Source: Butyricimonas faecalis (GTDB lineage: Bacteria > Bacteroidota > Bacteroidia > Bacteroidales > Marinifilaceae). Taken from it: 64,000 bases of DNA. Under the pieces are notes generated by a model. It saw only the letters and a program-made list of their open reading frames with translations. It was not told the DNA's origin and ran no database searches. A program made the position numbers and the translations under genes. Where the stretch lies: positions 620,001 to 684,000 of the forward strand of contig NZ_CP032819.1 in assembly GCF_003991565.1 (NCBI RefSeq), written 5' to 3'. Within the stretch, counting starts at the first letter, position 1. Each line of letters starts with the position of its first letter. Of the stretch, positions 8,210 through 22,985 are shown one piece after another.

Positions 8210-9409
8210 TTATTTATCACCTACATATAATTCAGCGACAAAGCGTGACTCGCGAGATACCGGTGTTAAATTTATATATCCGGCTGTTATCCGCCCCGTC
8301 TTTACTTGCAAAGGATACGCATCTCTATTTTCTTCCACCGATTGCATAATCTCTCCCGGCTTTGGAGAAAAACGAATCGTAAAAACACCCTCGACCTCTT
8401 CTTGCAAAAAACGCTGCAAAGCGATTGAAACAATCCCCATATTATAACGCAGATTTATCTCGACACAAGGCTGTACGCCAAATCCTCCCGACTCATCTTC
8501 GTATATCATCATATCCACGCCCAAACATCCCACGTACTTCCCGTGAAACACCGAGGTCAACACCTTCTCCAACTGTTCCCGTATCTCATGCAGGAGACCC
8601 ATGCCCGTGTATCTTGAGATCATCCCTTCCAAACGAGCACGCGATGCCACCCTATTCCCCTCGTATTCCCCCCGGCGACTAGTTTGAAAAACAGAATACC
8701 CAAGAAAATTCAAGTGAAACAAACGATCCATCTCAAACTCCATGGCAAAATCCAGTACCCGGTTCAACCTTTTTTCCACCATCACGTACCCTTGTTTATG
8801 CAAGAAACCGGATAAAACTTCCTCTTCTTTACCGGTCATCTGCCCTTTCGGGATAAAAAGTACCCCTTTACCGGAAGAAGACCAAGGAGCTTTTACCACG
8901 ATATCCCTCTTTTCTGACAACAACCGAATTTCTGCCAATGTCCTACATTCACAAGGGATAACCTCTTCTCCTATACCGGGAATAGCGCGTATCATATCCG
9001 TCAAACAAGCAGCAGCCACTCGCCGACTATACAAACCTCTCCGTTCCTCACTCCACGTGGCCATCACACTCTCCCTAAACTGCTCGTTACAACGACTTTT
9101 CAAATCTTTCAATAAATTATGAACCCGGGGACTCCATCCCCAAGGCTTTATCTCGTTAAAAGAAAGTAATTGAGCTTTTTCCCAGATAATCGGTTGGCAA
9201 TCCAACCCAAAAACTTCTCTTCTACCTTTCATAAAATTCAAGTCCGGCATTCTCGCAACCAACACGTAATCAGCATTTTTCGCTAAATATGCAGATAAAA
9301 ATGCCAGATCACCAGCCATGATGGAAATATTTGCTTTGGGTGTATAACCATTTGTTCCATTGGCTATTGAAATTTCATTATCCGGATTAAACAGGTACAA
9401 ATCTTGCAT
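8210..9409 (-). CDS. ATP-grasp fold protein of unknown substrate
   Basis: A 399-residue cytoplasmic protein with features of an ATP-grasp carboxylate-amine ligase. Residues 170-184 read IVVKAPWSSSGKGVL, like the ATP-grasp Lys plus glycine-rich loop (Lys173, Lys181). GVDMMIY at 297-303 and CVEINLRYN at 315-323 supply the Asp and Glu/Asn/Arg magnesium and phosphate ligands (Asp299, Glu317, Asn319, Arg321). The N-terminus (LFNPDNEISIANG) is not a standard ATP-grasp start and may form a substrate domain. No obvious pathway neighbours are present, only the 228-aa hypothetical gene downstream. A minus-strand TATTTTTG box (plus 9428-9435) lies just upstream, implying a very short leader. Confidence 0.7.
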   Translation of the reverse strand: MQDLYLFNPDNEISIANGTNGYTPKANISIMAGDLAFLSAYLAKNADYVLVARMPDLNFMKGRREVFGLDCQPIIWEKAQLLSFNEIKPWGWSPRVHNLLKDLKSRCNEQFRESVMATWSEERRGLYSRRVAAACLTDMIRAIPGIGEEVIPCECRTLAEIRLLSEKRDIVVKAPWSSSGKGVLFIPKGQMTGKEEEVLSGFLHKQGYVMVEKRLNRVLDFAMEFEMDRLFHLNFLGYSVFQTSRRGEYEGNRVASRARLEGMISRYTGMGLLHEIREQLEKVLTSVFHGKYVGCLGVDMMIYEDESGGFGVQPCVEINLRYNMGIVSIALQRFLQEEVEGVFTIRFSPKPGEIMQSVEENRDAYPLQVKTGRITAGYINLTPVSRESRFVAELYVGDK

Positions 9410-12078: not shown

Positions 12079-13242
12079 ATGAAAAAATTAGCTTTATTAA
12101 TACTTGTTATCGGTTGTGCGACAGGTGCTTTCGCACAAAATACCACGAACGAAAAGCCCCTCTTCGAACGAGTAACCCACATAGAGAAAAAAATAGACTG
12201 GTTCAACTTCTATTTGAACATGCAAGGTTCATTTGATGCCAGTTTCAATTATGACCAAAGCGGGCTAAGCGAGGCAGCATTCAAAATGCGTCAATTCCGT
12301 ATCGAGGCAAAAGGGAACATTACCCCTTGGTTATCCTATCGTTGGAGACAGCGTTTAAACCGCGGGAACAACGGGGGAAACAACATAGACAACATGCCGA
12401 CCTCCATTGATATTGCCGGCATCGGGGTAAAATTGAATGACCAATTCTCATTCTTCGCCGGAAAACAATGTGCCGCGTACGGTGGAATCGAATTTGACTT
12501 GAACCCGATCGAAATCTACGAGTATTGCGACATGATCGAGAACATGAGCAACTTCATGACCGGTTTGAACATCGCTTACCAAATCTGTGACAACCATCAA
12601 CTTCAATTCCAAATCCTGGACAGCCGTAACGGTTCCCAAGAGGAAACGTACGGTCCCGGTTTTGAAAAAAGCCGTGCCCCACTCTTGTACACGTTGAACT
12701 GGAATGGAAACCTATTCGACGGGATATATAAAACCCGTTGGTCGGCATCCGTGATGTCAGAAACAAAAAACAAACAAATGTACTACTACGCGTTAGGTAA
12801 CGACTTTACTTTCTCAAAAAAAGTAAATATGTTTGTCGACTTCATGTATTCCGACGAACAGATCGACCGGAAAGGTATCATTACCGGAATCCTAAAAGAA
12901 CAGAATGCAGATCTCGATGACCACAACGCTCTTGACGCGGAATACCTGTCAGTCGTGACAAAAATAAACTACCGTTTCCAACCGAAATGGAATGCCTTCG
13001 TGAAAGGAATGTATGAAACGGCCTCCGTGACAAAAACACGCGGTGACATCGAAAAAGGGAACTATCGTACCTCCTACGGTTACTTGGCAGGTATCGAGTA
13101 CTACCCGTTAGAAGACAGCAACTTGCATTTCTTCTGCACCTTCGTGGGACGTTCTTACAAATTCACGGACCGTGCCGCACAAAAAGGATACAACACACAA
13201 CGACTGGAAGTCGGATTTATTTACCAATTACCGATGTTCTAA
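12079..13242 (+). CDS. Outer-membrane porin, OprP-like, paralogue 1
   Basis: A 387-residue predicted beta-barrel with a signal peptide (about 1-19, GAFA cleavage), a short N-terminal coiled-coil-like stretch (LFERVTHIEKKI), many alternating aromatic strands and a C-terminal Phe (YQLPMF) typical of BAM substrates. It resembles the phosphate-selective porin O/P family (PF07396), although the true substrate is unknown. It closely matches the gene at 14182, sharing for instance LSYRWRQRLN and the PIEIYEY/PIEIYQY block. It lies 26 nt after asparaginase, suggesting uptake of asparagine, aspartate or C4-dicarboxylates across the outer membrane. A strong hairpin follows. Confidence 0.82.
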   Translation: MKKLALLILVIGCATGAFAQNTTNEKPLFERVTHIEKKIDWFNFYLNMQGSFDASFNYDQSGLSEAAFKMRQFRIEAKGNITPWLSYRWRQRLNRGNNGGNNIDNMPTSIDIAGIGVKLNDQFSFFAGKQCAAYGGIEFDLNPIEIYEYCDMIENMSNFMTGLNIAYQICDNHQLQFQILDSRNGSQEETYGPGFEKSRAPLLYTLNWNGNLFDGIYKTRWSASVMSETKNKQMYYYALGNDFTFSKKVNMFVDFMYSDEQIDRKGIITGILKEQNADLDDHNALDAEYLSVVTKINYRFQPKWNAFVKGMYETASVTKTRGDIEKGNYRTSYGYLAGIEYYPLEDSNLHFFCTFVGRSYKFTDRAAQKGYNTQRLEVGFIYQLPMF

Positions 13243-14181: not shown

Positions 14182-15366
14182 ATGAGAAAAAAACTATTAC
14201 TAATCACGCTATTAGCACTATCGCTACACGGGCTGTCAGCCCAAGGCCTGTTATCCCATCTGAACGACACGACAAGCAGACGAACCCTTTTCGAAAGAGT
14301 AGCAAACATCGAGAAAAAGAATAATCTCTTCAACTTGAAATTGCACATGCAAACCACGTTCAACGGGACATTTACAGACGGAACATTCGAGCAGGCTGCC
14401 TTCAAAATGAACCAGCTCCGACTGGAAGCCCGCGGTGACCTCAACGACTGGCTTTCCTACCGTTGGCGGCAACGCTTGAACAGCAGCAACACCCCTCACG
14501 CGTTGGACAACCTCCCCTCCTCCATCGATTATGCCATGATCTCCGTGCGTTTGACTGATAAACTCGTCACCTCCATCGGGAAACAGGCAGCAGCATACGG
14601 TGGTTTCGAGTACGATTTGGACCCGATTGAAATCTACCAGTACAGTGACATGATCGATTACATGCTCTTCGATTTCATGACCGGTATCACCTTCTCGTAT
14701 CAAGTCACCCCAACCCAAGAACTTGCATTACAAATCGTGAACAGCCGAACGGCTTCCATGGACGATATTTACGGGCAACTCCCGGGAGACGTGGAAGAAA
14801 GCCATGCACCTCTCGCTTACACGGCCAACTGGAACGGCAACTTCTTCAACGACAAGTTGAGAACCCGCTGGTCATACTCCCTACTCAGTCTGGCCAAAGG
14901 ATACAACAACCATTTTTACGCCATCGGTAACGAACTGGATTTAGGAAAGTTCAACATGTACCTCGATTTCTACCTTTCTGACGAAGAACTCGACAACCGA
15001 GGCATTGTTTCAAGCCTCCAACGTCTTCAAGGGAATGCCGATTGCATCAAAAATGCCCGTTACGAATCCTGGGTTACCAAATTAAACTACCGGTTCCAAC
15101 CCAAGTGGAATATTTTCGTGAAAGGAATGTACGAGAATGCCTCTGTTTACAAATATGCCGATCAAATAGAAAAAGGGAAATACCGGACAGCTTATGGGTA
15201 TTTCGGTGGAATCGAATACTATCCCACCACGGAAAACCTACACTTCTTCGCGTCGTATATCGGGCGTTCTTATCGATTCACGGGTAAAGCCAAAGCGTTG
15301 GGAGCCGAAAACTACTCCACCTCAACTTTATCCATCGGGTTAATCTACCACATCCCGTTGTTTTAG
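14182..15366 (+). CDS. Outer-membrane porin, OprP-like, paralogue 2
   Basis: A 394-residue beta-barrel with a signal peptide (about 1-20, LSAQ) and a C-terminal Phe (HIPLF). It aligns along its whole length with the porin at 12079. Shared features include the N-terminal LFERVxxIEKK segment, LSYRWRQRLN, the AAYGG-(I/F)E-(F/Y)DL block and the YRFQPKWN-FVKGMYE strand pair. The start is only a few nt after the T-run of the upstream terminator, so its own promoter is not obvious and read-through past that terminator may drive it. The substrate is unknown; proximity to asparaginase and Dcu suggests small acidic or amide compounds. Confidence 0.82.
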   Translation: MRKKLLLITLLALSLHGLSAQGLLSHLNDTTSRRTLFERVANIEKKNNLFNLKLHMQTTFNGTFTDGTFEQAAFKMNQLRLEARGDLNDWLSYRWRQRLNSSNTPHALDNLPSSIDYAMISVRLTDKLVTSIGKQAAAYGGFEYDLDPIEIYQYSDMIDYMLFDFMTGITFSYQVTPTQELALQIVNSRTASMDDIYGQLPGDVEESHAPLAYTANWNGNFFNDKLRTRWSYSLLSLAKGYNNHFYAIGNELDLGKFNMYLDFYLSDEELDNRGIVSSLQRLQGNADCIKNARYESWVTKLNYRFQPKWNIFVKGMYENASVYKYADQIEKGKYRTAYGYFGGIEYYPTTENLHFFASYIGRSYRFTGKAKALGAENYSTSTLSIGLIYHIPLF

Positions 15367-15388
15367 ATTTACAAAATCAACATGAATA

Positions 15389-15413
15389 AGGGCAACCTTT
15401 TAAAGGTTGCCCT
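15389..15413 (+). terminator. Terminator after porin 2
   Basis: agggcaaccttt (15389-15400) and aaaggttgccct (15402-15413) form a compact hairpin. It lies between the converging porin and aconitase-like genes and may work in both directions. Confidence 0.7.
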
Positions 15414-15493
15414 CTTCCCTGCCTCGGCACCCCGACACAGAAAAAAACAACACACACATAAATATCAATAGCTTCTTCTTCCTACTCCCGTAT

Positions 15494-17254
15494 TCAAGAA
15501 AAAGCATTTACCAATCCTCCTTTCGCAAGGATGTCTTGAAATTCCGCGTCAACATGAGGGAGCTTATACGCTCTCTCGTTCAAATATAGTACATGATTTT
15601 CGTCATCTATTGTCAGCCGTTCCCCTGACGTGTAAGCATCCACCACGGCCCAATCAATAAGAATCCGTAACCCGTGATTAATAGCCATCCGGTAGAAATC
15701 CCGGTTCACCGATTTCGCGATGACCAGTTTCACCCCCACGGCCACCAATCCCGTCGCCGCATGCTTCACGAGTCGTCCACACCCGAAATTCTCCCCGGCG
15801 ATAATAATATCTCCCGGCTTCACGTCGCAAGTGAAATTCGGATCCAACCCTTTAAACAAATAAGGTTTAATCTCTTCCACCTGTTCAAGTGTCAATCGAC
15901 AGGTCAACTTTTCCGAGAAAATCTGGCTACTGGATATATTATCTATATCCCCGTAATTCCACACCCCGTTACTCTTGCGATAATCATACTCTCCCAGCAC
16001 GACGGGTTCAACCCGGGGAACATTATATTTATATTGGGCACCCTCGAAATGAATCATCGGGGTCAGTTCCCCTCGCAGTGCGGTCATGGCCACGGTTGCC
16101 GGAGAAGCGATATATTTTTCGACTCCGGAGTGATTGTTCCCCCCGATGTACTGACTATTGGCAGTAGAGATAAAACAGCTGTTTCCGACAGACGCCACGC
16201 GTCCCACTCCCAGGCAAGGCCCGCAACTGGAACCAAGCACCACGGCCCCCGACTGTGCGATCTTATCGATAATGCCCTCTTCAACCGCCCGCAAATATAT
16301 ATCCCTGGAAGCCGGGACCACGAATAACTGGAACCCGTTAGCAATATGTTTGTCTTCCAAGATCATGGATACCAACCGCAAATCTTCCAATCGTCCCGAA
16401 GCACAAGCCCCGATGAGCCCTTGCTGTATTTTCAGCCCGACAAGCTCCTCAACTGCTTGAAGAACATTGTTTCCCGTGTCATACACCATGGGAAAGACAT
16501 TCGCCAGATCGATCTCTATAAACCGGGAATAAACGGCCTCTTCGTCCGCCCAAACACCCCGTACCGCCGGTTCATTAAAATAGTCGGCCAACCGATCGTC
16601 CGGAGGAAAAGCAGAACTGACCACGCCCATTTCCGTAGAAATATTGGCTATCGTCATTCGATCATCGATGGACAAGGAGGCAACCCCTTCCCCGTGATAT
16701 TCGATCGCCAACCCGTTCACGTCCAACTTACTCAATATACCCTTGATCCACAAAGCCAAATCTTTGGCAAACACCCCTTCCGGCAGACGGTTCTTTAAAA
16801 CGATCTTCACCGTCTCGGGCACCCGGAACCACATTTTCCCCGTTTTCCATAACACGGCCGTCTCCGTTTTATTAATCCCCATGGCCAACGTGTTGAACGC
16901 TCCTGCCGTGGCGGTATGCGAATCGCTCCCGACAACCAACATCCCCGGACGTACCAGTTCGGAAATAATCTGGTGCCCGATCCCGCGGTCACAGTCATAG
17001 AAATGCTCTATACCCTGCTCTTCCACGAAATCCCGTATCGAATTATATTCCAACGACAACTCGTTGATCACTCCCGACACCTTCCCGTCCAGCACGATCA
17101 CCAACTGGGAGGGCTTGTACACGCGGGTACCGTGAATTCGTTCAAACAAAAACCTAACCCGTGCCGAATTATCGTGACTCATCACGTAATCCGGTTCACG
17201 GACCACGATACTCCCACATTCGGCATTTAATATCTTCTCTACAAATGTTCGCAT
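15494..17254 (-). CDS. Divergent fused aconitase / isopropylmalate isomerase superfamily enzyme
   Basis: A 586-residue protein in which the LeuC-like large domain (about 1-430) and the LeuD-like swivel domain (about 445-586) are fused. The [4Fe-4S] ligands are visible: Cys284 (GACASGR), Cys344 and Cys347 (SSCGPC). GSDSHT (109-114) and IYLRAVEEGII-type elements are also present. Two canonical substrate-binding motifs are altered: the NRNF-GR loop reads NSQYIGG (366-372), and the swivel signature GSSREHA reads GRLVKHA (493-499 region), so the usual Arg and Ser ligands are missing. It is therefore unlikely to be ordinary aconitase or isopropylmalate isomerase. It is probably a hydro-lyase acting on another substrate, perhaps one with fewer carboxylates. 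cutC lies 63 nt upstream on the same strand; no leucine genes are nearby. Confidence 0.8.
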   Translation of the reverse strand: MRTFVEKILNAECGSIVVREPDYVMSHDNSARVRFLFERIHGTRVYKPSQLVIVLDGKVSGVINELSLEYNSIRDFVEEQGIEHFYDCDRGIGHQIISELVRPGMLVVGSDSHTATAGAFNTLAMGINKTETAVLWKTGKMWFRVPETVKIVLKNRLPEGVFAKDLALWIKGILSKLDVNGLAIEYHGEGVASLSIDDRMTIANISTEMGVVSSAFPPDDRLADYFNEPAVRGVWADEEAVYSRFIEIDLANVFPMVYDTGNNVLQAVEELVGLKIQQGLIGACASGRLEDLRLVSMILEDKHIANGFQLFVVPASRDIYLRAVEEGIIDKIAQSGAVVLGSSCGPCLGVGRVASVGNSCFISTANSQYIGGNNHSGVEKYIASPATVAMTALRGELTPMIHFEGAQYKYNVPRVEPVVLGEYDYRKSNGVWNYGDIDNISSSQIFSEKLTCRLTLEQVEEIKPYLFKGLDPNFTCDVKPGDIIIAGENFGCGRLVKHAATGLVAVGVKLVIAKSVNRDFYRMAINHGLRILIDWAVVDAYTSGERLTIDDENHVLYLNERAYKLPHVDAEFQDILAKGGLVNAFS

Positions 17255-17317: not shown

Positions 17318-18070
17318 CTAAATTTTACCTTGCACATGATCTAAAACGGCCTTTATCTTCTCCGCGTCACTATAGTACTGCTCGTACTCCGGCAGTCCAG
17401 GAACCCCGCCCATGAACACGTTCGGGTTACGGAATTTCATTTCACTATCCCGACTGCTCTTCCCGCTCAAGTGAATGGCATCCACCCCCAATTCCATTAA
17501 TGCACGGGCATTCGCGGCATTCACGCCACTTCCCGCCATAATTTGCACGCGTCCTCCCGCCTGTTTCACCAAGGCTTCGATTTGCTCCATACCCTCGTTT
17601 ACCGTGTTGCGTCCTCCCGAGGTCAACACCCGGTAGCACCCGGCCTCGATAATCCCCTCCAAAGCCTCTTCCATATTCCTTGTCATATCTATCGCCCGGT
17701 GAAACGTTACTTTCAAAGGAGCCGCCAACTCGACCAATTCCCGCGTGCGTTGCACGTCAACCGAACCGTCAGCGTTCAATATCCCCAACACGACGCCATC
17801 CGCCCGGCACGCTTTGGCAAACCGGATATCCTCCTTCATCACCTCAAACTCCAGGTCTGAATAAAGAAAATCACCCCCTCTGGGGCGAATCATCACGTAA
17901 AGTTGTATGGATAACTTTTCCCGGGCCATACGAATCATGGCCGCGGAAGGGGTGGTTCCCCCGTCATACATCCCGGAGCACAACTCCACCCGGGACGCTC
18001 CTGCCTGCTGGGCATTCAAGCACGATTCCAAAGAAAAAGTACATATTTCGACCTCGATATTATTCTTCAT
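17318..18070 (-). CDS. cutC: CutC family protein
   Basis: A 250-residue TIM-barrel protein of the CutC family, historically linked to copper tolerance though its enzymatic activity remains unclear. Diagnostic blocks are VEICTFSLESCLNAQQAGASRVELC (key residues E8, C10, S13, C17, Q21, E29, C31), YVMIRPRGGDFLYSD, TFHRAIDM, VLTSGG and IMAGSGVN. Length is normal. A TAATTTTG -7 box on the minus strand (plus 18110-18117) is a plausible promoter about 40 nt upstream. It probably shares a transcript with the aconitase-like gene downstream. Confidence 0.92.
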   Translation of the reverse strand: MKNNIEVEICTFSLESCLNAQQAGASRVELCSGMYDGGTTPSAAMIRMAREKLSIQLYVMIRPRGGDFLYSDLEFEVMKEDIRFAKACRADGVVLGILNADGSVDVQRTRELVELAAPLKVTFHRAIDMTRNMEEALEGIIEAGCYRVLTSGGRNTVNEGMEQIEALVKQAGGRVQIMAGSGVNAANARALMELGVDAIHLSGKSSRDSEMKFRNPNVFMGGVPGLPEYEQYYSDAEKIKAVLDHVQGKI

Positions 18071-21771: not shown

Positions 21772-21779
21772 TACTTTTG
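21772..21779 (+). promoter_or_regulatory. Putative -7 box of the MFS gene
   Basis: TACTTTTG matches TAnnTTTG. It overlaps the TTG codon that opens the longest reading frame of the MFS gene, so translation must begin downstream of it. Confidence 0.5.
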
Positions 21780-21806
21780 TCTTTCGAAAAGAAAAATAGA
21801 AATCAC

Positions 21807-22985
21807 GTGTCGTTAAAAAAAAATATCATAGCACTCTACTTGATCAAGGTTTCCAAATGGTTTACCCTGGTGATGCCTATCATTGTGCTATTTTACAAGG
21901 AATGCGGGCTGGATTTGGCGGATATATTCATCTTGAAGAGCATTTACTCCATCGCCATGGTGTCGCTGGAGATACCGACGGGTTATCTGGCCGACGTGTG
22001 GGGACGCAGGAATTGCTTGATCGCGGGGTGCATATTCTGCTTCCTGGGATTCTCCAACTATTCGATCTCCGACACGTTCACGGCATTTTTTCTCTCGGAG
22101 GTGTTGCTTGGATTCGGTCAAAGTTTGGTATCCGGGGCCGATTCCGCCCTACTCTACGACACCATGCTACATTACAAAAAAGAGGATGAGTACCTGAAAT
22201 ACGAGGGAAGAGTCACCATGATCGGGAATTTTTCGGAGGCTTTTGCCGGGATATTCAGCGGCCTACTGGCTGTTTACTCCCTCCGGCTCCCGTTTTACGT
22301 GCAAAGCGGGATCGCGTTCATCGGGATTCCGGCCGCCATTGCCTTAACCGAACACGCTGCGAAAACCAGGATAAAAAACTCTTTTGCCAATATCGTACAG
22401 ATTATTCGATACTCGCTTTTCACGAACAAGGAGTTGTGTTATAACATCATGTTCTCCGGTATCATCGGGGCAGCCACGCTCACGATGGCTTGGTTTGTTC
22501 AACCTCTCTTGATAGAACTGGATACTCCGACCACTTGGTTTGGGATCATCTGGACCATTCTAAATCTCACCGTCGGGATCTCGGCCCTTTACTCGGACAA
22601 ACTGGACCAACGCCTGGGGAGCATGAAGATGTACACGTTAATCTTGTTCTTTATCACGGGGGGATATATTGCCGTGGCCTTTAACGTTTCGTATATCGGT
22701 TTGGTATGCCTATTCTTTTTTTATATCGTGCGGGGTTTTGCCACTCCGATATTAAAAGGATATATCAATCAAATCACCTTTTCCGAAATGCGGGCTACCG
22801 TGTTGTCCATCCGTAACTTTGTCATCCGGCTCATGTTCGCGGCCATGGCACCGCTTGTCGGTTGGTTACACGACTTGTATTCTCTTTCTATCGCCCTGCA
22901 AGCCACGGCCGTTATTATTTTCGTACCCGGGTTGCTCTTCTTGATCCTGCAATATCGCTACAAGCCGAAAGAACCTTCCGTGTAA
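21807..22985 (+). CDS. Major facilitator superfamily transporter
   Basis: A 12-helix inner-membrane carrier of the MFS. The loop between helices 2 and 3 has the diagnostic GYLADVWGRRN (the G-x-L-aD-x-x-GRR motif A). Helix-rich segments continue to the basic C-terminus RYKPKE. Substrate is unknown; the family includes drug and sugar efflux proteins. The frame opens at TTG 21777, but a -7 box overlaps that codon, so I place the start at the GTG at 21807 (393 residues). No ATG is available until after the first helix. No regulator gene is adjacent. Confidence 0.78.
   Translation: MSLKKNIIALYLIKVSKWFTLVMPIIVLFYKECGLDLADIFILKSIYSIAMVSLEIPTGYLADVWGRRNCLIAGCIFCFLGFSNYSISDTFTAFFLSEVLLGFGQSLVSGADSALLYDTMLHYKKEDEYLKYEGRVTMIGNFSEAFAGIFSGLLAVYSLRLPFYVQSGIAFIGIPAAIALTEHAAKTRIKNSFANIVQIIRYSLFTNKELCYNIMFSGIIGAATLTMAWFVQPLLIELDTPTTWFGIIWTILNLTVGISALYSDKLDQRLGSMKMYTLILFFITGGYIAVAFNVSYIGLVCLFFFYIVRGFATPILKGYINQITFSEMRATVLSIRNFVIRLMFAAMAPLVGWLHDLYSLSIALQATAVIIFVPGLLFLILQYRYKPKEPSV

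Follow-up and report, generated by a model that had tools for sequence, protein, structure and literature searches.

A fused aconitase-superfamily protein of Butyricimonas with conserved iron-sulfur ligands and replaced substrate-side residues

The gene and its surroundings

The stretch of DNA analyzed here (the window) is 64,000 nucleotides long and carries, at 15494..17254 on the minus strand, a gene for a fused aconitase-superfamily protein of 586 residues (P0001). Matches to PF00330 (3.3e-72) and PF00694 (1.6e-8), both above their curated cut-offs, lie in one chain, in agreement with an earlier note on this DNA that described a fusion of the large and small domains; the open reading frame given there is a real gene, and its strand is minus. 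The cutC gene (17318..18070, minus strand) lies 63 bp upstream, and we would guess from this spacing that the two genes are co-transcribed. That cutC, and not a leu gene, is the neighbor had been pointed out before and is borne out, with no LeuC in the genome. Just 3′ of the gene is a terminator-like hairpin of 12 pairs (15388..15414, minus strand), which is weak evidence because chance alone would give 3.6 such sites in the region, where four occur. Promoter and terminator scans of the region gave counts near chance, and no riboswitch or other RNA family was found in the window at gathering scores. Two similar proteins of 387 and 394 residues that belong to one cluster (12079-13242 and 14182-15366) flank a gene for a 230-residue protein that appears OmpA-like by eye; the 394-residue protein has no NCBIfam match.

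No paper on this protein in Butyricimonas or Odoribacter splanchnicus was found in one library of open-licence papers, with broader queries run on titles and the starts of abstracts. Searches of plasmid and phage sequences returned no match of at least 60% identity. Five of the 38 phage records listed (MT835515, MT835578, MT837267, MT837859, and MT835471) hold fused aconitase relatives at 28-34% identity; these "Bacteriophage sp." records are unannotated, come from human faeces, and are possibly bacterial DNA.

Family scores and active-site residues

The curated families that score highest against P0001 are the LeuC-type homoaconitase/isopropylmalate isomerase groups, with scores below the respective cut-offs for NF001614 (330.8, cut-off 385), TIGR01343 (323.1, cut-off 385.7), and TIGR02086 (323.1, cut-off 410.15); P0001 is in fact below the cut-off of every one of the best 25 of 26 curated families. 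Its nearest solved structures are likewise an isopropylmalate/citramalate isomerase and a homoaconitase (PDB 4nqy, 4kp1, and 4kp2), which we take to be from Methanocaldococcus jannaschii. In those structures the large and small subunits are separate chains, whereas P0001 is fused and has lost catalytic residues. The Pfam AcnX family (PF04412) gives an E value of 0.11 and 11.6 bits against a cut-off of 31.5. Two proteins, P0003 and P0056, bear the JGI name "3-isopropylmalate dehydratase large subunit 1"; metabolic reconstructions that follow such names would assign a leucine step for which the genomes tested give no support.

Residue numbers of the canonical enzyme are those of mitochondrial aconitase, transferred through structure-database alignments and a multiple alignment. 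The roles of individual aconitase residues are general knowledge, apart from those of the Ser642 base, the cluster cysteines, and His101. The [4Fe-4S] ligands are intact, as the earlier note had it: Cys284 (16403..16405, minus strand) aligns with Cys358, and Cys344-Gly-Pro-Cys347 (16214..16225, minus strand) supplies the equivalents of Cys421 and Cys424. Asp111-Ser112-His113 (16916..16924, minus strand), the counterpart of Asp165-Ser166-His167, is also kept. At Asp56-Gly57-Lys58 (17081..17089, minus strand), Asp100 is retained and the catalytic His101 is gone, LDHN having become LDGK, so that the catalytic Asp100-His101 pair is reduced to D56-G57. This loss is new to the present analysis, as is that of the small-domain TD aspartate, presumably Asp568, which is Ser443 here and turns the motif into SS.

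Two further replacements reported earlier align with aconitase and isopropylmalate isomerase (IPMI)-type enzymes without doubt. NSQYIGG (residues 366-372; 16139..16159, minus strand) stands in place of NRNFxGR, with S367 at the position of Arg447 and with Arg452 also gone, and GRLVKHA (residues 493-499; 15758..15778, minus strand) stands in place of GSSREHA, with R494-L495-V496 for Ser642, Ser643, and Arg644 and a new Lys497. P0001 therefore has neither the serine base of the SSRE(H) loop nor the NRNF arginine by which aconitase, IPMI, and homoaconitase are recognized. A check had been proposed of whether shifted residues supply the missing Arg and Ser ligands. The positive charge is partly shifted rather than vanished, because R494 occupies the Ser642 position and K497 the E645 position; no arginine is present in STANSQYIGGNNHSGVEKYIASP of the window protein.

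Conservation of this pattern was assessed in two sets of relatives. A protein search that scored 8000 candidates returned 1925 matches; the best 120 of these plus the query gave 118 sequences longer than 560 residues, which a crude ungapped filter at about 90% identity reduced to 50 (the derived set). The best 120 relatives of the Labilibaculum ortholog, also longer than 560 residues, were reduced to 66 by the same kind of filter and represent a fused paralogue with canonical motifs, which we call canonical paralogue B. All residue counts rest on one MAFFT alignment. Each of the three cluster cysteines is present in 50/50 derived and 66/66 canonical sequences, and Asp100, His147, Asp165, Asn258, and Glu262 are each present in 50/50 of the derived set, where Ser166 (46/50, Thr in four), His167 (49/50), and Asn446 (46/50) are nearly as well kept; each of these residues is 66/66 in the canonical set. 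On the substrate side, residues found in all 66 canonical sequences are almost uniformly missing from the derived ones: His101 (0/50; Arg 33, Gly 17), Ser642 (0/50; Lys 24, Arg 13, Gln 8, Pro 2, and Gly, Glu, and Thr one each), Ser643 (0/50; Leu 49), Arg644 (0/50; Ile 31, Val 12), Arg447 (1/50), and the TD aspartate (5/50; Glu 26). Arg452 follows a different course. Present in all 66 canonical sequences, it is kept in 33 of the 50 derived ones, which places its loss on the Butyricimonas side; in the subgroup with Gly57 (n = 17), one sequence keeps it and one has a gap.

The clear signal is thus a split between the iron side, where 11 positions are each kept in at least 46/50 sequences, and the substrate side, where seven substrate or acid-base positions are all replaced in P0001, and not a general pile-up of changes. 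Across the derived set, 71 positions that are at least 95% conserved in canonical B are altered, 24 of them newly fixed; no significant clustering of this divergence around the active site was detected (Fisher p 0.058; p 0.18 for newly fixed positions). A chance origin of the altered motifs is ruled out by the residue counts in the 50 derived and 66 canonical sequences. New invariants have also appeared, namely Lys58 and E65 (each 50/50), with Lys497 close behind (47/50); the adjacent H498 is present in 50/50.

The residue at 494, the Ser642 position, is basic in 37/50 derived sequences and that at 497, the E645 position, in 48/50; with Arg452 in 33/50, these counts leave unestablished the earlier suggestion of a substrate with fewer carboxylates. 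They also speak for a protein that would still be a di- or tricarboxylate (de)hydratase, R/K494 and K497 having taken over from Arg644 and Arg452 still serving on the Odoribacter side. We consider this improbable: Arg447, Arg452, and Arg644 are all gone in the window protein, and its genome encodes neither citrate synthase nor LeuC nor a dehydrogenase for isocitrate or isopropylmalate.

Relatives, genome content, and selection

In a scan of named genomes, of which the best 80 of 529 loci were used, the derived loci carried the labels Butyricimonas (67-95% identity, plus one locus at 62%), Sanguibacteroides (67%), Odoribacter laneus (55%), and uncultured Odoribacter (53%). The genomes with the derived pattern form one family-level group of Butyricimonas, Sanguibacteroides, and Odoribacter, all known gut bacteria. 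A match at 1e-100 was obtained in 27 of 56 genomes from the family of the window; 15 of the matches are derived (at least 54% identity, one a fragment) and 12 canonical (45-48%), and none of the 27 has an internal stop. When 393 genomes were drawn evenly from the order, 136 had a match at 1e-140; among these, identity above 50% is confined to the family of the window and the rest stand at 42-48%.

The 72 remaining loci among the best 80 of 529 are canonical, with NRNF and SSREH kept in 72/72, and are labeled Labilibaculum, Marinifilum, Bacteroidales, Cloacimonadota, Chlorobiota, Delongbacteria, Desulfuromusa, and others. Canonical paralogue B shares with P0001 the domain fusion, the length, 42-48% identity, and the cluster and iron-side residues. 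Unlike P0001, it keeps NRNF, SSREH, and the DH and TD motifs (the last two in 66/66), and it occurs in genomes that, where tested, have citrate synthase and the Iso_dh family (8/8). It scores 483.7 on NF001614, above the cut-off that P0001 does not reach, and several records in Bacteroidales, Cloacimonadota, and other groups name it an "aconitase/3-isopropylmalate dehydratase large subunit family protein." No characterized member of this fused clade was found in our literature and database searches.

A tree of the large domain was built from 68 rows (18 derived, 22 canonical B, 16 of the related paralogue A, and 12 others). The derived rows form one clade (support 100) on a long stem of 0.61, and together with canonical B (40 of the 68 rows) they stand apart from paralogue A, LeuC, and the aconitases (support 98). 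Canonical B alone is recovered as one side with a support of only 43; the tree was made by a quick method and has long branches elsewhere, and it is compatible with the derived clade being either nested in canonical B or sister to it. The phylogeny that the earlier note had asked for hence places P0001 in the fused clade, outside the LeuC and aconitase clades. An assignment to LeuC, aconitase, homoaconitase, or AcnX is rejected on the strength of the curated family scores, the residues, the phylogeny, and the gene content of the genome.

Canonical B is often one half of a pair. For 52 of the 72 canonical loci there is a second fused family member no more than two genes away on the same strand, and in 49 cases it bears the paralogue-A motif SSRQQ; among the 20 loci without one, eight have less than 2 kb of upstream sequence. 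Some loci of our two scans are the same place under two identifiers, and the 72-locus counts use one scan alone. The pair is a tandem of one canonical and one non-canonical fused aconitase: in paralogue A (L016:7924-9786 and 15 other loci), His101 is replaced by Cys (15/16) or Thr (1/16), and in 16/16 His147 is Thr, Asn258 is Ser, and Arg452 is Lys, with Arg447, Ser642, and Arg644 retained. An AsnA-family gene (344 residues; two copies tested) separates the two fused aconitases in L092, L105, and L111 (= L020) and adjoins paralogue A on the opposite strand in L076 and L102.

In seven canonical loci, mostly labeled Cloacimonadota, an Iso_dh-family gene precedes the fused pair, usually followed by an HDIG protein (an assignment scored on one copy, L088). 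The Iso_dh-family protein of about 395 residues (L112:92-1279; also L045, L051, L061, L088, L099, and L114) is possibly an uncharacterized dehydrogenase; the one copy scored, that of L112, is homoisocitrate/isocitrate-dehydrogenase-like and below every equivalog cut-off among the families listed. Inspection of the sequence starts by eye suggested a two-subunit 2-oxoacid oxidoreductase in L045, and succinyl-CoA synthetase and a class I fumarase in L046. The ancestral role of the clade was likely tricarboxylic acid isomerization in a TCA-like route.

The derived genomes look different. The window genome (completeness 99.99%, contamination 4.9%) has no match to PF00285 (citrate synthase) or PF00180 (Iso_dh), families that were found in 13/14 and 14/14 control genomes, respectively, and it encodes no other PF00330 protein. 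Citrate synthase is present in 0/12 derived genomes (the 12-genome counts exclude G062 and G079) and in 0/6 relatives of the same family without B, versus 8/8 canonical genomes. The Iso_dh family has no match in 10/12 derived genomes and is found in 8/8 canonical ones; in the two exceptions, G007 and G027, the single match adjoins leuC. The derived protein is the sole PF00330 protein in 10/12 derived genomes. It is thus kept without its presumed pathway. The six relatives that lack citrate synthase as well as B indicate that some members of the family can do without B and that loss of the citrate pathway does not by itself require it.

Gene neighborhoods vary between genera, and no single pathway emerges from them. 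In 11 of 14 derived genomes cutC adjoins the gene or lies within about 1 kb; in the other three the distances are 29 kb, 75 kb, and about 400 kb. It also occurs in 3/6 relatives without B and in 5/6 canonical genomes, at listed positions far from canonical B; common ancestry alone may thus account for the link, and the value of cutC as a pathway clue is undercut. The only, faint, hint that the substrate might be phosphorylated comes from CutC, which matches phosphate-binding barrels (TMP synthase and IMPDH) weakly and below threshold. An MFS transporter gene of the window (21777..22985, plus strand), 4.5 kb from the gene, is 51-56% identical to an MFS gene beside the canonical fused pair and hints at a trace of the ancestral locus; as a partner it was set aside, being present in only four of 12 distinct derived loci (the window, L030, L031, and L035). 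Three Odoribacter-side loci have a peptide-deformylase-family protein directly upstream (L143:10232-10894, L144:8454-9095, and L025:10667-11281), two of these proteins with a lipoprotein-type start by eye, and a carbon-nitrogen hydrolase (one copy tested) lies 3′ of the gene in some Butyricimonas and Sanguibacteroides loci.

In three Butyricimonas pairs with the window, the dN/dS of the gene is 0.061, 0.073, and 0.059 (the last with a saturated dS of 2.3); a fourth pair gave no finite dS. For the neighbors the values are 0.038-0.127 for cutC, 0.038 and 0.064 for lipB, 0.020-0.047 for lipA, 0.015-0.025 for asparaginase, 0.016-0.039 for DcuB, and 0.134-0.155 for the gene at 8210. Within Butyricimonas the gene is thus under purifying selection, yet some of the seven genes compared are more constrained: its dN/dS exceeds that of lipA, asparaginase, and DcuB (0.015-0.047). 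These values bear on whether the gene is a decaying relic of a lost TCA branch. Loss of catalytic residues does go together with the absence of citrate synthase and isocitrate dehydrogenase, and some family members lack B altogether (G017, G032, G008, G019, and G029 among them). However, a dN/dS of about 0.06, close to that of cutC and lipB, indicates that the gene is not decaying. With no internal stop in the 27 family matches and with new invariant residues, decay or a pseudogene is hardly credible.

Possible functions of the altered site

The reading that we favor, with a confidence slightly better than even, is that loss of the oxidative TCA branch left a tricarboxylate isomerase without its pathway, and that this protein was re-specified and would still act as an Fe-S Lewis-acid hydro-lyase, now on a new substrate. 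The gene would derive from canonical B, a fused LeuCD-type enzyme of Bacteroidales and some other phyla, which would have been kept with an altered active site when citrate synthase, isocitrate dehydrogenase, and paralogue A, all absent from the Butyricimonas, Sanguibacteroides, and Odoribacter genomes tested, were lost. C284, C344, and C347 would hold a cluster with an open iron corner framed by D56, H94, D111, H113, N204, and E208, and this iron could act as the Lewis acid on a hydroxyl group of the substrate. The new conserved lysines K58 and K497 would replace the Ser/His/Arg set, and proton transfer could fall to K58, adjacent to the missing His101, and to K497/H498 of what was the SSREH loop. 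The substrate would be a small hydroxy compound, perhaps with a phosphate or a single acid group, and distinct from citrate, homocitrate, and isopropylmalate; speculatively, CutC may serve the same pathway.

The earlier proposal of a substrate unlike citrate or isopropylmalate is supported by the residue changes and, independently, by genome content, as neither citrate synthase nor Iso_dh nor another PF00330 protein is encoded. That dehydration chemistry is kept, as also proposed, we can only infer, since with Ser642 and His101 both the general base and the acid have disappeared as well. Re-specification is favored by the derived clade (support 100) and its junction with canonical B (98), by the split between iron and substrate sides, by the dN/dS of about 0.06, by citrate synthase in 0/12 derived versus 8/8 canonical genomes, and by K58 in 50/50 and K497 in 47/50 sequences. 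Against it stand the variability of the Ser642 position (K 24, R 13, Q 8, and five others), which is unlike that of a catalytic residue, neighbors that give no clear pathway, and the lack of significant focusing of change on the active site.

The superfamily offers a precedent for other substrates in AcnX, which includes cis-3-hydroxyproline dehydratase and mevalonate 5-phosphate dehydratase (PMC8184944, in excerpt). The same excerpt describes the cluster cysteines and the role of His101 in aconitase and calls the Ser642 base central to its catalysis. For AcnX type I the proposed proton donor to the leaving hydroxyl is a lysine without homology to His101; this type retains the serine base and differs in domain order, and in AcnX the cluster ligands are altered (PMC8184944). 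AcnX type I is the nearest precedent for an acid-base role of lysine.

Because AcnX type I keeps its serine base, the loss seen here may mean that catalysis was abandoned. P0001 would then be a pseudoenzyme in which the fold and the [4Fe-4S] cluster serve as a redox or iron sensor, a scaffold, or a cluster store, comparable to the iron regulatory proteins except that the cluster would be retained. The base, the acid, and the carboxylate ligands are indeed lost together with the cluster ligands invariant, even AcnX type I has the serine (PMC8184944, in excerpt), and the gene is under purifying selection in a genome without an obvious pathway for the protein. However, D111, H94, N204, and E208, seemingly needless in a mere sensor, are each conserved in 50/50 sequences, and the new lysines of the catalytic loops are nearly invariant. 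The net charge is not suggestive of RNA binding either, with a pI of 5.3 for P0001 and means of 5.55 for the derived and 6.16 for the canonical set; an RNA-binding regulator, judged from charge, is unsupported. We regard a pseudoenzyme as unlikely, if well short of negligible, and sequence alone cannot separate it from the re-specified enzyme.

Taken together, the chances seem to us about even that this branch, which lacks the serine base and occurs in genera without a citrate pathway, has arrived either at Lys/His-based Fe-S dehydration of an undescribed substrate or at a regulatory role with the cluster retained. In both cases the function would, to our knowledge, be without example among members of the fold. 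A lineage under purifying selection that has lost Ser642 and kept the cluster ligands amounts to a natural experiment on the capabilities of an aconitase-type iron site deprived of that base.

A partial parallel is found in Escherichia coli YbhJ, annotated as a putative hydratase. Like P0001, it lacks His101, with a serine in its place; unlike P0001, it keeps both NRNF-type arginines and has the swivel loop GSAREQ. The YbhJ at L117:2004-4265 aligns with Ser for His101 and Val for Asn258 and retains the Arg and Ser ligands.
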